From: Crocinitomicaceae bacterium
GTDB taxonomy: Bacteria > Bacteroidota > Bacteroidia > Flavobacteriales_G > Salibacteraceae
DNA: 64,000 nucleotides
Assembly (NCBI GenBank): GCA_002713215.1
Contig: PAVO01000018.1
Span: 62,001-126,000 of the forward strand
Reading direction: 5' to 3'
The notes below the pieces were generated by a model that saw only the letters and a list, made by a program, of their open reading frames with translations, was not told the DNA's origin and made no database searches. Positions 29,357 to 39,594 of the stretch are shown here, piece after piece. Position 1 is the stretch's first letter; each line of letters begins with the position of its first letter. A program made the position numbers and the translations under genes.

Positions 29357-30442
29357 CAGGCTAAGCAAAAATCCTTGGAAGCAATCGCCCTAAATAATCT
29401 TGAAAAGCCCATTTTACTTGCCGGGCCATGTAGTGCAGAATCAAAAGAGCAATTGTTACAGGTAGCAACTTCTCTTCAAAATTCTTCAACCATCAATATG
29501 CTCAGGGCTGGAATTTGGAAACCCAGAACCCGACCCAATTCGTTTGAGGGAGTTGGAGAAGAGGGGCTTAAATGGTTAAGTGAAATCCAGTCGGAACTGA
29601 ATCTACCAGTAGTAACTGAAGTTGCTACTGCGCAACATGCTCAAAAAGCACTGGAACATGGAATTAAAAATGTTTGGATCGGTGCAAGAACAACCGTAAA
29701 CCCATTTTCGGTTCAGGAAATTGTTGAAGCTTTAACCGGAGAGGATGTATGCGTTCTGGTTAAGAATCCCATTCACGCCGATATCGATCTTTGGCAAGGA
29801 AGTATAGAGCGGTTCATGAAAGCCGGTATTACCAATTTAGCCGGTGTACATCGTGGGTTTTCTTCATTCCTTAATTCAGAATACCGAAACCTGCCTATGT
29901 GGAACATTCCTATTGAACTCCAGAGAAGGTTTCCTGAACTGCCAATAATTTGTGACCCAAGCCACATTGCCGGCGTCAACAACCTGGTTCCAACAGTAGC
30001 ACAAAAGGCTCTCGATTTGAACATGGCCGGCCTGATGATTGAAGTACATCCAAATCCAAAAGAAGCACTTAGTGATCCCGAACAACAACTCACACCAAAA
30101 GATTATAATGAGTTAATTGCAACCCTGGTTATTCGGGATGCTAAGCCTGAAAGCCAGCTGATTATTAACCAATTGGAAGAGTTGCGAGCTCAAATTGACA
30201 AAGTAGATGAAGATTTGATAAGTACATTGTTATCAAGAATGGATGTAATTAGACAAATTGGCCAATACAAGCACAATAACAACGTATCGGTTCTACAATT
30301 AGAAAGGTGGAACGAAATACTAACGTCAAGAAGCGAACTTGGCAGCAAACTCAATATGGACGATAAATTTATTAAGCGACTGTTCGAGTTGATTCATCAG
30401 GAATCCATTCGAATTCAAACCAATATAAATTCCACTAAATAG
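29354..30442 (+). CDS. Bifunctional DAHP synthase / chorismate mutase type II
   Basis: Fuses the first step of aromatic amino-acid synthesis to chorismate mutase. Residues ~15-265 are a type I beta-class DAHP synthase: LLAGPCSAESKEQ, RAGIWKPRTRPNSFEGVGEEGL, PVVTEVAT, WIGARTT, VKNPIHADIDLW, GVHRGF and ICDPSHIAG. Residues ~275-355 are an AroQ chorismate mutase (LEELRAQIDKVDEDLISTLLSRMDVI broken here into its pattern 'R..ID..D..L...L..R', then IGQYKHNN and LFELIHQESIRIQ). This order is common in Bacteroidota, where the mutase domain may mediate feedback. No ATG exists; TTG 29354 or 29375 are the options. Its last 8 bp overlap the end of convergent hemD. Confidence 0.94.
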   Translation: MQAKQKSLEAIALNNLEKPILLAGPCSAESKEQLLQVATSLQNSSTINMLRAGIWKPRTRPNSFEGVGEEGLKWLSEIQSELNLPVVTEVATAQHAQKALEHGIKNVWIGARTTVNPFSVQEIVEALTGEDVCVLVKNPIHADIDLWQGSIERFMKAGITNLAGVHRGFSSFLNSEYRNLPMWNIPIELQRRFPELPIICDPSHIAGVNNLVPTVAQKALDLNMAGLMIEVHPNPKEALSDPEQQLTPKDYNELIATLVIRDAKPESQLIINQLEELRAQIDKVDEDLISTLLSRMDVIRQIGQYKHNNNVSVLQLERWNEILTSRSELGSKLNMDDKFIKRLFELIHQESIRIQTNINSTK

Positions 30443-31091
30443 AAATGCCATTCACGGCGTCGGCCCAGGCTAATTCCTTATAACTCCATGGAAGGATTGA
30501 ATCAACTCCCTGGTTATCCAGTTCTTGCTTTGTACTTCTTCCTATCGCTATTGCCTTCTGATTTATATTTATTTTGTTTCCTGAATTAAAATATCCAAGG
30601 ACATTCGAGGGACTGGTAAATACAACTACGTCGTAGTTGTCGGAAAGCAGAATGTTAATTGTTTTGGTTTCGTAAATGGGCAAATCAATCACCTGGTTTG
30701 TCGGTAGTTTTTTTTGAATATTTCTCCTCCCGTCAGCAGCCCCGGGAAAAAGTACCTTTTCCTGCCCTACAAGTGAAACGAATTCAAACGCTACTCTTTC
30801 AACCTCGTGAGACCCTGTATAGCTGGAGCTAACATTAAATCTAGCCAACGCTTTTTCTGTTCCAGCACCTAAACAGCCAATTTTTTTATCCGCTACTTCA
30901 TCAGCGGAAATGCAATTAAAAAAATGAATAACCGCATTTGGAGAGCTAAAAAATACCCATTGAAATTCTTTTGGAAGATTAAAAGCAATCGATTCTAATT
31001 GAATAAACGATTGTCCGGCAATCGAGTGGTTTAAGGTAGAAAGTGACCGATAAAAGTCACCCTCCGGATTTAATTCACGCGTGATTAGAAC
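30435..31091 (-). CDS. hemD: Uroporphyrinogen-III synthase, in the -1 frame behind hemC, no own start codon
   Basis: Cyclises hydroxymethylbilane to uroporphyrinogen III. The frame reads V-L-I-T-R-E-L-N-P-E-G-D-F-Y-R from 31091 and runs 218 residues to 30435, the usual length. Family landmarks: WVFFSSPNAVIHFF, KKIGCLGAGTEKALA, 'VLFPGAADGRRNIQKKL', 'YETKTIN', 'DVVVFTSPSNVLGYF', 'AIAIGRSTKQEL'. No ATG, GTG or TTG occurs in the frame between the upstream TAA (about 31112) and a TTG at 30848 in the middle of the protein. The N-terminal half is nevertheless well conserved, so the gene must be expressed another way. It follows the A10 run of hemC in the -1 frame, so a HemC-HemD fusion by frameshift, slippage or a homopolymer miscount is the best explanation. 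Confidence 0.88.
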   Translation of the reverse strand, partial: VLITRELNPEGDFYRSLSTLNHSIAGQSFIQLESIAFNLPKEFQWVFFSSPNAVIHFFNCISADEVADKKIGCLGAGTEKALARFNVSSSYTGSHEVERVAFEFVSLVGQEKVLFPGAADGRRNIQKKLPTNQVIDLPIYETKTINILLSDNYDVVVFTSPSNVLGYFNSGNKININQKAIAIGRSTKQELDNQGVDSILPWSYKELAWADAVNGISI

Positions 31092-31110
31092 TTTTTTTTT
31101 TGCTCCTCCT
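31085..31110 (-). promoter_or_regulatory. hemC-hemD: Candidate frameshift/slippage site at the hemC-hemD junction
   Basis: On the minus strand, AGGAGG (31110-31105) is followed by AGC and ten A (31101-31092), then GTTCTAA. In the hemC frame the end of the run is A-AAA-AAG, the same heptamer as the E. coli dnaX frameshift site, with an internal Shine-Dalgarno-like sequence 7 nt before it and the hemC stop 2 codons after it. A -1 slip continues directly into hemD (K-K-V-L-I-T-R). Transcriptional slippage adding one A would have the same effect. Confidence 0.6.
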
Positions 31111-31987
31111 TAATAATTTGGAGTGCTTCAGAGATTAACTCATCAGGATTTGTATTGGTAAGATGAAATCGATTCACCGGTGAGTTCAAATCCTGGGCAT
31201 AAGATACCCATAGTTTAAATTCATGGTCGTTTGTACAATAAACACCTAACGGCAATTGGCACCCACCTTCGCAGGCCTTTAAAATTCCTCGTTCCACATT
31301 AATTCGTTCTGAAACGTTCGAATCATTCAACTGGCTCACAATACTTATAGTCTCTTGGTCATTCGTACGGGCTTGCCATGCTAGCACTCCCTGAGCCGGA
31401 GCGGGGACGAACTCATGTGGTTCAAGTATTTCAAGGTGAAGATCAGTTACATCAAGCTCTAGTCGCTCAACCCCGGCGCGAGCAAGCATGATTGCATCGT
31501 ACTTTCCTTCACGTAATTTCTCAATTCTGGTAGGAACATTTCCTCTTAACTCAGAAAGTTCAAGATCAGGTCTAAAGAATTTAAGTTGGGATACTCTCCT
31601 GGCCGACGAGGTGCCAACCTTTGCTTTCTCACTAAGGCCAAATCGCTTTTCAGGATCAATGCATTCGTTCCTAATTAGCAATATATCAGAAGGGTTTGCC
31701 CGACTGGAAACTGCTACGATTTTTAACCCTTCCGGTTCTTCCGTTTCCAAATCTTTATGGGAGTGAACCGCCAGGTCTATCTCATTGTTTAGAAGCTTTT
31801 CTTCAATTTCTTTGGTAAAGAAGCCTTTGCCTTCCATTTTGTCAAAACTCAGATGCTGAATTTTATCTCCCTGGGTTTTAATCACAATAATTTCAACCTC
31901 AACTCCGAGGTCTTCAAGAAGCATTTTAGTTTTGTTAGCCTGCCAAAGAGCCAACCTGCTTCCCCGTGTACCAATTCTTATTTTCAA
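31085..31987 (-). CDS. hemC: Hydroxymethylbilane synthase (porphobilinogen deaminase)
   Basis: Polymerises four porphobilinogens into hydroxymethylbilane. Signatures: IGTRGSRLALWQA at the N-terminus, HSHKDLETEEPEGL, GTSSARRVSQL, ELRGNVPTRIEKL, APAQGVLAWQ, and the dipyrromethane-cofactor Cys in CEGGCQLPLGVY. It is 300 residues long with ATG start 7 nt after the hemA stop. The C-terminus reads EEQKKKF; its last codons (CAA AAA AAA AAG TTC TAA) contain an A10 run and the heptamer A-AAA-AAG, where a -1 slip would enter hemD. hemA-hemC-hemD forms one operon. Confidence 0.96.
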   Translation of the reverse strand: MKIRIGTRGSRLALWQANKTKMLLEDLGVEVEIIVIKTQGDKIQHLSFDKMEGKGFFTKEIEEKLLNNEIDLAVHSHKDLETEEPEGLKIVAVSSRANPSDILLIRNECIDPEKRFGLSEKAKVGTSSARRVSQLKFFRPDLELSELRGNVPTRIEKLREGKYDAIMLARAGVERLELDVTDLHLEILEPHEFVPAPAQGVLAWQARTNDQETISIVSQLNDSNVSERINVERGILKACEGGCQLPLGVYCTNDHEFKLWVSYAQDLNSPVNRFHLTNTNPDELISEALQIIKEEQKKKF

Positions 31988-31994
31988 CCTGGGA

Positions 31995-33233
31995 TTATTT
32001 AGATTCGTCTTGCAACAAAATTTCTTTTGCCAACAACATTGGAGTACTCATGTATTTCTTTTCGACAAAAGAAAGAACCTTTTCTAGTGTTTCCCTTGAA
32101 TTAGAATCCAGCTGTGCAATTTCCTTAGCATAAACTATTTCGGTGGCACGCTTTCGAATTTCCTTAACCTGAATAGGCACTTTTCTCATCACAAGCTCTA
32201 CCTGTCGAACTTTATGAAGGCTTTCAAAATCAACAAGCCCCTGCGATATAATAAGCTCACACTTCTCTAGCTCACCTCTTCTTGCCTCAAGATTTCTGGC
32301 CGCAATGTCCTTTAAATTCTCAATTGCTATATATTGTATTCTTGGGTCCGACTGAATATCCTTCGAAACATCACCAGGAACCGCCAGGTCCACAACAGTA
32401 ATTTTATTTGAATTCTGTGGTTCCTTTTTCAAAAGACTATCTAAAATCGTTTTATCGATTATGTGTCCTTCTGAACCAGTACAGGTTACCACAATGTCGG
32501 CTGGTTTATTATGTTCAGAAAGTTTTTCAAGGTCTAACGCTTCTCCTCCAAAACCTTCCTGCATCTTTTTGGCATTGATCAGGGTTCTGTTGTAAATGGT
32601 AAAATCACTATAGCCCACCTTAACCATCTTTTTTGCCATAGCCTGGTTGGTTTTTCCTGAACCAACGAATACGATTTGTGATGTCAATGATGGGTTGAAT
32701 TCCCTTAATTGCCTGAAAGCAAGATTAACTACTGAAACCGGCCGGGTTGCAATATCCGTTTCCGTATAAACCTGCTTAGCCAGTTCTACCGTTTTCTTAT
32801 AGAGGATTCGAATAAAGTCACCTGTAAATCCAAGATCCCTGCAAAAATGGTAGGCATCCCTGAATTGACTTAAGATTTCCCGTTCGCCAATTACCAAAGA
32901 TTCTAACGAAGACGCAACACGAAATGCATGATTAACTCCTTCCAAATGTGAAAATACCCATGCCTTTTCTACTGCATTATTAAGTTGAAATGGAGAAAAA
33001 GAAGGATAAATTTCAGTTAAGATCTCAAACAAAAGCTCAGAAGTCATCTCTTTTTCAGCCCTAAGCCATAATTCTACTCGATTGCAGGTACTTAAAAAGA
33101 GAAACTCGGAGACCTCCAAATCCTTTAATCTGCCAAGTCTACCTGGCTGATTATCAATTGAAATGTGAAAATCTCCAATAAGATCTATTCCAATGTTCTT
33201 GTGATTAAATGATATGCAATGAAATGACTTCAT
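31995..33233 (-). CDS. hemA: Glutamyl-tRNA reductase
   Basis: Reduces Glu-tRNA to glutamate-1-semialdehyde, the entry step of the C5 haem pathway. The N-terminal catalytic domain has the nucleophilic Cys in STCNRVELW and 'HAFRVASSLESLVIGEREILSQ' in pieces SLESLVIGERE and LSQFRDAY. The Rossmann domain follows (IVFVGSGKTNQAMAKKM), then the helical dimerisation domain. About 412 residues. ATG 33233 (M-K-S-F-H-C) is preferred; a TTG at 33245 would add four residues. First gene of hemA-hemC-hemD. The region 33234-33435 contains the divergent promoters; I see only imperfect -7 elements in it. Confidence 0.96.
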   Translation of the reverse strand: MKSFHCISFNHKNIGIDLIGDFHISIDNQPGRLGRLKDLEVSEFLFLSTCNRVELWLRAEKEMTSELLFEILTEIYPSFSPFQLNNAVEKAWVFSHLEGVNHAFRVASSLESLVIGEREILSQFRDAYHFCRDLGFTGDFIRILYKKTVELAKQVYTETDIATRPVSVVNLAFRQLREFNPSLTSQIVFVGSGKTNQAMAKKMVKVGYSDFTIYNRTLINAKKMQEGFGGEALDLEKLSEHNKPADIVVTCTGSEGHIIDKTILDSLLKKEPQNSNKITVVDLAVPGDVSKDIQSDPRIQYIAIENLKDIAARNLEARRGELEKCELIISQGLVDFESLHKVRQVELVMRKVPIQVKEIRKRATEIVYAKEIAQLDSNSRETLEKVLSFVEKKYMSTPMLLAKEILLQDESK

Positions 33234-33435
33234 AGTCCTTAACAAAGGTGCGGCTATGTTGAATTTCGATTGTCACGCTATTGTCATCTAACTCGTATCT
33301 GGAACGATTCTAAATAAAGGCCTTTATTTGCTGTTTTTAACAAATTCAATAGTTCAAAAATTAACCCTTACTTTGTGTCCGCGTTAGAGCGAACGAAATT
33401 TTATTACTTTTATGGTTAAATCAAAAATTTAAGAG

Positions 33436-38460: not shown

Positions 38461-39594
38461 ATGGCAAAGTATTTACTGTTTTTTCTTTTCCTGGGTTGCC
38501 TGGGGTCATGCGCTAACGTGGACGAATTAATTGAAAATGGACAATATGACCATGCCATTCACAAAGGCATTCAAAAATTAGAAAAAACCCCCAACGACGC
38601 TGTAGCTCAAAAGAACGTAATAAAAGCTTACCAACTGGCCCAGAAAATGGATTTGGCCGACCTTAGGTCATTCTATGAACTGGAGGAAAGCCCTGCGACT
38701 TGGGAAATGATTTACAATACCTACGCTAAAATGAAAGACCGGGATCGGCAATTAGAAAATGCTAACCTTTCAGCTCCCCTGGCTTATCATGTTCCTTCCG
38801 GTGAAATGCAAAATGCTCAAAAAAACCTCTGCATTGCGTACACTGACCTAGCAGAAGAACTGATGGAGAAACAGACCAAAATCGGATATCGACAAGCTTA
38901 TTCAAAATGGCAAAAGACACGTCAATACAACTGCGAAATAGATCAACTGGATTCACTAATAAGCTACTGCGTTTCCAAGGGTAAAGTTTCAGTTGCCCTT
39001 CAACTGGATGAACAAAAGGGGGTTAGCATACCAGAGAAAACAAGAATTGACTTATCCAATTTATCCTTTAGCAGGAACAATAAGCTAGGTATGTGGGTAG
39101 ATTATTGGACAAATTATGAAATAGACCAGGAAATAAACTACACGGTTTTATGCACCTTCAACGAAATAACAGTATCGCGAAACCGGGAAAGCGTAGTTAG
39201 TACAGTCGCTGAAAAAAAAATTATTGATCATTATGAAAACAAAAAAAATGCAGAAGGAAAGATAGAAAGGGTCCCTGTTTATAAAATCATTAAGGCTACC
39301 ATTAAGAAATACACTCAACGAAAGGCTTCAACACAAGGGGTTTATTTTTTAATAATTGATAATGAAAAAGGAAGCACCCTATACCAGAAACAGTTGGTGG
39401 CCCGGTTTTCATATGTTTATAATTATTCTACAGCCAGTGGCGATTTACGAGCACTAAGTTCAAAACAAAAAAATGCGTTGAAAAGAAAGAAAAAACCGTT
39501 TCCATCCAATTCTTTTATGGTACAACGGAGTGGAGAAAAGCTGGTTAACCTAGTTTCAAATGAAATATATAGACAAAGAAGGTTCTTTAATTAG
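38461..39594 (+). CDS. Lipoprotein of unknown function with helical repeat-like N-terminus
   Basis: A 377-residue lipoprotein starting ATG 4 nt after the deacetylase stop. The signal peptide ends LGCLGSC (Cys at ~17). Residues ~20-150 are helical and charged, perhaps TPR-like (DHAIHKGIQKLEKTPNDAVAQ). Residues ~190-340 are beta-rich (GMWVDYWTNYEIDQEINYTVL, VYKIIKATIKKYTQRKAS, GVYFLIIDNEKGSTLYQKQL). The tail is basic. I do not recognise the family. It is coupled to the deacetylase and is therefore probably an envelope protein. Confidence 0.72.
   Translation: MAKYLLFFLFLGCLGSCANVDELIENGQYDHAIHKGIQKLEKTPNDAVAQKNVIKAYQLAQKMDLADLRSFYELEESPATWEMIYNTYAKMKDRDRQLENANLSAPLAYHVPSGEMQNAQKNLCIAYTDLAEELMEKQTKIGYRQAYSKWQKTRQYNCEIDQLDSLISYCVSKGKVSVALQLDEQKGVSIPEKTRIDLSNLSFSRNNKLGMWVDYWTNYEIDQEINYTVLCTFNEITVSRNRESVVSTVAEKKIIDHYENKKNAEGKIERVPVYKIIKATIKKYTQRKASTQGVYFLIIDNEKGSTLYQKQLVARFSYVYNYSTASGDLRALSSKQKNALKRKKKPFPSNSFMVQRSGEKLVNLVSNEIYRQRRFFN

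Follow-up and report, generated by a model that had tools for sequence, protein, structure and literature searches.

In the window, by which we mean the whole stretch of 64,000 nucleotides analysed here, hemD has no start codon of its own and is encoded in the −1 frame, following a run of ten As close to the end of hemC. Comparison of this junction with those of relatives strongly supports the view that the A run is a recoding site, from which HemC and a HemC-HemD fusion would both be made. The recoding most probably takes the form of transcriptional slippage on the A10 run, which would yield the two products from one gene pair. In our best reading the mechanism is one already known, and the hemC-hemD pair is a new gene for it, for which we found no earlier report.

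The hemC gene (porphobilinogen deaminase, or hydroxymethylbilane synthase) occupies positions 31987..31085 on the minus strand, starts with TTG and encodes 300 aa, which match Pfam PF01379 (E 4.5e-72). Directly 5′ of it, on the same strand, lies an ORF (31995..33245) which we take from its sequence to be a hemA-like glutamyl-tRNA reductase. The 3′ end of hemC reads GAG GAG CAA AAA AAA AAG TTC TAA, the stop codon being at 31087..31085. The A10 run, our proposed slippage site, is at 31092..31101 on the minus strand (T10 on the plus strand), in the hemC phase cAA AAA AAA AAg. The hemD gene is in the −1 frame relative to hemC. From its upstream in-frame stop, at 31110..31112 and 8 nt 5′ of the run, this frame reads TAA GGA GGA GCA AAA AAA AAA GTT CTA ATC ACG, and it forms a stop-to-stop ORF of 224 aa (31109..30435, minus strand) whose conserved domain, V-L-I-T-R, begins at the GTT at position 31091. 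The end of hemC, the frame of hemD and the A10 run are all as the original prediction had given them. Its claim that hemD lacks a start also held: there is no ATG, GTG or TTG in the hemD frame between the upstream in-frame stop and residue 88 of 224, where a TTG is found (30848). As no such codon precedes residue 88, an overlooked ordinary start can be ruled out. The mechanical, start-codon-based list of ORFs of the window contains hemC and a shortened hemD, and the full enzyme is therefore easily overlooked by a gene caller of this kind.

The start-less hemD frame matches the Pfam HEM4 family (PF02602, E 2.8e-23). A structure model of its product, built from 13 sequences, had a pLDDT of 94.6 and a pTM of 0.83, and its PDB fold matches at E ≤ 0.001, 13 in number, were all uroporphyrinogen-III synthases (UROS; e.g. 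1jr2, E 3.6e-11). Profile and modelled fold agree in predicting that the frame encodes a true uroporphyrinogen-III synthase. The first strand of the model corresponds to residues 6-9, directly at the lysines encoded by the A run, so that initiation at the TTG would cost 87 of the 224 residues. In close pairs of start-less relatives hemD is under purifying selection, with dN/dS values of 0.143, 0.105 and 0.159 in three such pairs, the pairs being hand-picked and none of them coming from the window's lineage. Among five more distant pairs, hemD gave values near saturation in two (0.12 and 0.23) and was not computable in three, one of which is the pair formed by the window and L004. Two HEM4 matches above the cut-off were found in 27 of 28 genomes checked, regardless of the state of their hemC-hemD junction; these genomes were hand-picked for the HEM4 and dnaX searches and include the 15 start-less ones described below. 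Since the second gene lies elsewhere in these 27 genomes, it may take on part of the work of the operon hemD. In the window's genome the second HEM4 gene (C18:27163-27765) was also seen, as a HemD-like gene, at positions 1459-2214 of locus L001 on the minus strand (G000:C18); its neighbours are presumably an rnpA-like ORF and a membrane-protein ORF, judging from their sequences.

For a comparison with relatives, 202 hemC loci with their flanks were collected by whole-genome searches and from one contig collection. The search of the contig collection covered the best 80 of 219 relatives and had the hemC-end peptide KEEQKKKF among its patterns, while the other genome searches for hemC loci used the entire protein as query. 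One of the searches was class-wide (395 genomes, 246 with a match), and among the matches listed only loci with an unfused hemC frame were taken from it. Fifty-four of the 202 loci were dropped (duplicate junctions, HemD absent from the locus, hemD non-adjacent or HemD broken), and L001, L002 and L030 were left out of the junction classification. The result was a set of 148 distinct hemC-hemD junctions: 59 in-frame fusions, a class under-counted because of the restriction to unfused loci in the class-wide search, 74 separate hemD genes with a start (50 ATG, 15 GTG, 9 TTG), and 15 start-less hemD genes. We called a hemD start-less when the stretch from 36 nt before the beginning of its domain to 6 nt after it contained no start; in one locus of this class, L038, a GTG is present farther upstream, at 111 nt.

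All 15 start-less hemD genes lie in the −1 frame behind an A9 (13 loci) or an A10 (2 loci). Runs of nine As or more were absent from the 133 other junctions (0 of 59 fused, 0 of 74 start-bearing), the longest run there being A8. The association of the start-less state with such runs, 15/15 against 0/133, has a Fisher p of 7.6e-21, ignoring relatedness. The original prediction had asked for this comparison of junctions among relatives, and the answer agrees with it, as the start-less −1 hemD occurs only with A9 or A10 (15 of 148 junctions). It had also held that relatives with an ordinary hemD start and no run would speak against recoding; such relatives exist, but as a separate class. The confinement of start-less −1 hemD genes to A9/A10 junctions and the frequency of fusions (59 of 148, in the under-counted class) give, at the level of sequence, strong support to recoding as the likely origin of the joined protein.

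The 15 start-less loci are spread over eight genera and three families. Seven of the genomes belong to six genera of the window's family, five to one genus of a second family and three to one genus of a third. On a quick LG+G4 tree built from HemC and HemD with the linker removed, 8 changes of the start-less state were needed, at least four of them being forced by well-supported branches. In two loci of the window's family, L004 (A9) and L010 (A10), the run is at the same place, with KKKV followed by LIT, and the hemC stop overlaps the same codons. More generally, the hemC stop is found 0-1 codons past the run in 13 of the 15 start-less loci and at most 10 codons past it in all 15, the third frame closes 2-15 codons past the run, and the hemD frames are open for 214-223 codons. 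Around the hemC stop of more distant hemC types, runs of nine As or more were absent (0 of 40 loci, in 18 of which the profile found no hemD). The distance from the HemC to the HemD motifs was considered as evidence for fusion and dropped: the median was 56.7 residues for start-less loci and 57.0 for fusions, and that of separate genes is nearly equal (55.7), so that spacing does not discriminate.

In the mechanism that we propose, RNA polymerase would slip on the A10 run close to the end of hemC. On faithful A10 transcripts, translation would end at the TAA one codon past the run and yield only HemC. If one A were gained or two were lost, the reading frame would continue into hemD, and the product would be a bifunctional HemC-HemD protein, predicted from the coordinates to be 517 aa long in the case of one A gained, with the junction ...QKKKVLITR.... 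The remaining frame error would lead to a stop after four codons. The same fusion protein would result from programmed −1 ribosomal frameshifting at the A-AAA-AAG heptamer in the manner of E. coli dnaX; the two mechanisms yield an identical protein sequence, and they could also act together. The original prediction had favoured the ribosomal one and named slippage as an alternative. Its recoding part, with HemC and a HemC-HemD fusion as products, is strongly supported, but of the two mechanisms slippage is the better supported one.

Frameshifting in E. coli dnaX involves an upstream Shine-Dalgarno-like element and a stem-loop a few nucleotides downstream. The heptamer itself, A_AAA_AAG, triggers −1 ribosomal frameshifting there, and of the two products it is the shorter that results from the frameshift (PMC3711429). 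Like E. coli dnaX, the window has an A-AAA-AAG heptamer, in hemC phase (31091..31097, minus strand), and a Shine-Dalgarno-like AGGAGG (31110..31105, minus strand), which is indeed present 7 nt 5′ of the heptamer as had been claimed. A hairpin is also predicted downstream (z −2.7 with flanks). Among the start-less sites, 12 of 15 have the A_AAA_AAG/C pattern in phase, and the position of hemD in the −1 frame in all 15 fits a ribosomal shift as well. However, unlike in E. coli dnaX, the Shine-Dalgarno-like element and the hairpin are not kept among start-less hemC-hemD loci. The AGGAGG occurs in 1 of 15 loci, and any of GGAG, GAGG or AGGA within 22 nt in 3 of 15, which removes it as a conserved stimulator. 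No downstream hairpin common to the start-less relatives was found, and that of the window is not shared; its core (31038..31065, minus strand) is 26 nt 3′ of the A10 run, a weak, interrupted outer stem beginning 10 nt 3′ of the run. A class-level excess of downstream RNA folding does speak for frameshifting, with a mean z of −1.06 in start-less loci against −0.12 in fused ones (p 0.0008, ignoring relatedness), though the comparison with start-bearing loci (−0.60) is not clear (p 0.09, ignoring relatedness); single strong folds were seen in L003 and L125.

The length and phase of the run point the other way. Six As are enough for the ribosomal A_AAA_AAG, yet the run is never shorter than nine in the 15 start-less loci. 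Its phase also varies: in 12 of the 15 loci it is read as NNA or NAA, AAA, AAA, AAG/C, and in the other 3 as AAA AAA AAA GCC. Slippage of bacterial RNA polymerase has been described at nine As (PMC1088944, PMC5009743). The critical length is reported to differ between genomes (PMC1088944), and 7-8 As may slip too in some dnaX genes (PMC3711429); nine is therefore not a sharp general threshold.

The dnaX genes of the same genomes bear on this choice. In the 28 genomes chosen, 27 dnaX loci were examined, and all 27 had a run of nine As or more near the gamma/tau boundary (24 A10, and one each of A9, A11 and A13); the search in the 28th genome, G039, gave weak matches only. The tau frame behind the run was −1 in 18 of the 27 loci, all with an A10, in frame in 8, where the run is A10 or more, and +1 in one, that of the window's genome. 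In this last case the run is an A9 (L256, minus strand, G000:C25:73858-73866), the gamma frame ends just after it, and the C-terminal part of tau is encoded by an ORF in the +1 frame, where no start is present for about 200 nt. This dnaX needs the +1 direction, which one −1 step of the ribosome cannot provide, unless the A9 is a miscount of the A10 found in relatives, as it could be. Runs of at least nine As, the Shine-Dalgarno element and hairpin that are not kept, the variation in phase and the dnaX runs together lead us to regard transcriptional slippage as the probable mechanism at hemC-hemD and ribosomal frameshifting as an unlikely one. We infer that slippage occurs and that it does so in transcription and not on the ribosome; it would then determine the ratio of the products, and it may have a regulatory role.

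Three further explanations were weighed. An error of sequencing or assembly, with a real run in frame and hence a plain fusion gene, is very improbable. Homopolymers are error-prone, and the window's genome is a draft of 56 contigs; no second genome of its genus was met in the searches, and the exact run length of this strain therefore rests on one assembly. Nevertheless, the runs of nine or more are always accompanied by a −1 hemD in 15 separate genomes, including assemblies of one and two contigs (G011, G323, G466). An in-frame junction with such a run, which the original prediction regarded as the sign of miscounting, was sought in the 148 junctions and none was found, so that homopolymer miscount is excluded as a general explanation. 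The proximity of the hemC stop, within one codon of the run in 13 loci, is a further argument against it, as is a stop of the hemD frame that overlaps the run in four loci (L010, L146, L185 and L228). In these four there is also no start before the first strand, and ordinary initiation therefore cannot make a whole HemD.

A HemD translated on its own from a non-standard start, by coupling to the termination of hemC, is likewise very doubtful. In the window, the AGGAGG just 5′ of the hemD motif would suit such a start, as would the overlap of the hemC end with the hemD start in many start-bearing relatives. But we searched the interval from −36 nt, or from the upstream stop, to +6 nt for ATT, ATC, ATA, CTG, ACG, AAG and AGG, and 9 of the 15 start-less loci contained none of these; the other 6 have no near-cognate codon common to all. 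A non-AUG start of hemD was rejected on this ground, no near-cognate codon being common to the 15 loci, and it would leave the association with runs of nine As or more unexplained. Least credible of all are the views that hemD is decaying as a pseudogene, or that changes in genomic run length switch it on and off as a contingency locus. Although a second HEM4 gene is present and long A runs generally mutate fast, the 15 hemD frames are open throughout, close pairs are under purifying selection, and the "on" length is seen in 0 of 15 loci when phase variation would show some.

Long A runs were also counted over the whole genome of the window's strain (5.03 Mb, 56 contigs). There are 88 runs of nine As or more on both strands together (81 A9, 6 A10, 1 A11). 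Only 7 runs thus have ten or more As, and one of them, an A10, is exactly at the start-less hemC-hemD junction. Relative to ORFs of at least 150 codons, 41 of the 88 runs are on the sense strand, 12 on the opposite strand and 35 in neither position. A paper on such runs regards more than 20 A9-type genes in a genome as a reason for caution where the runs are not under-represented in coding regions (PMC1088944). Of the 88 long runs, 53 are within ORFs of at least 150 codons, whereas among the A/T runs of 5-6 in the window the figure is 371 of 408; long runs thus appear depleted from coding sequence, which would be expected of runs that slip. The 41 runs on the sense strand of long ORFs nonetheless indicate that an A9 is tolerated in many genes. 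Within the 148 hemC-hemD loci, runs of nine As or more number 15 in the 90-nt junction windows and 5 in the 216 kb of hemC and hemD bodies away from the junction.

Several known systems resemble the one proposed here. In Thermus thermophilus dnaX, transcriptional slippage on an A9 is established, at about 50%, and the heterogeneity of the mRNA sets the ratio of the products (PMC1088944). As proposed for hemC-hemD, a run of the nine-A type in a coding region is associated with two products from one gene, but in Thermus the long product is the one encoded by the genomic frame, and the short one results from slippage, which is the reverse of what we propose. Closer is the two-ORF form of dnaX with ten As, for which the GeneTack study proposed slippage (PMC3711429): it shares with hemC-hemD the −1 relation, the A10 run and a longer product that needs realignment. 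This form is also the one found in 18 of the 27 genomes examined here; unlike it, hemC-hemD is a pair of biosynthetic enzymes. In Citrobacter rodentium tssM, slippage occurs at about 20-25% on an A11 that lies 28 nt short of the stop (PMC4256274). In this gene and in Shigella mxiE and spa13, slippage links an upstream ORF to a downstream one and gives a longer protein (PMC4256274, PMC1088944, PMC5009743), as would be the case for hemC-hemD. Those are secretion-system genes, whereas hemC-hemD is a housekeeping biosynthetic operon, with the start-less arrangement in three families. Finally, a bifunctional HemC-HemD fusion is described in Leptospira interrogans (PMC8698207). The predicted product would join the same two enzymes with adjacent domains (PF01379 and PF02602); in Leptospira this is a fusion protein, while the window has two frames and no single ORF, which recoding is proposed to join.

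The conserved cases reported by the 2005 survey of A9/T9 runs are six from insertion sequences and one Staphylococcus gene (PMC1088944). The words hemC, hemD, porphobilinogen and uroporphyrinogen do not occur in the main text of the 2013 study of frame transitions (PMC3711429), and they are likewise absent from the part of a 2016 review that was searched (PMC5009743). A search of titles and the beginnings of abstracts in the open-access literature, with supplements and subscription papers outside its scope, found no report of hemC/hemD recoding.

Programmed bacterial slippage concerns dnaX, insertion sequences, secretion systems and endosymbiont genes in the papers cited here. If slippage at hemC-hemD is true, it would serve a pair of enzymes of a core pathway, and it would recur in several lineages. 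We put forward, tentatively and at somewhat less than even chances, that in Bacteroidota a slippage site that evolved repeatedly and is conserved sets the ratio of HemC to HemC-HemD, as a stable intermediate between the separate and the fused arrangement that is selected for its output of two products and not merely tolerated. The junctions of this group form a natural series of separate, presumably slippage-joined and fused genes, in which the origin of gene fusions may be studied. They also raise the question of whether fusion in part of the HemC suffices to hand the unstable hydroxymethylbilane on to HemD.

A few minor observations were made along the way. Two candidates from the genome-wide screen of A runs were dropped, L255 having a normal ATG after the run and L252 looking like a chance frame. 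The broken hemD genes of L043, L062, L068 and L147 were rejected as slippage cases, as there is no run of nine As or more there; in L043 (4348-4362), a fused HemC-HemD, the HemD part shifts frame near its end, perhaps by assembly error or decay. In the window itself, an A9 run at 39212-39220 lies inside a long plus-strand ORF (404 codons within the fetched stretch), so that slippage at this place would truncate the product. Lastly, the only A11 of the genome (L287, minus strand, G000:C55:36913-36923) coincides with a break into the −1 frame in an ankyrin-repeat gene, and Pfam detects ankyrin repeats on either side of the break.
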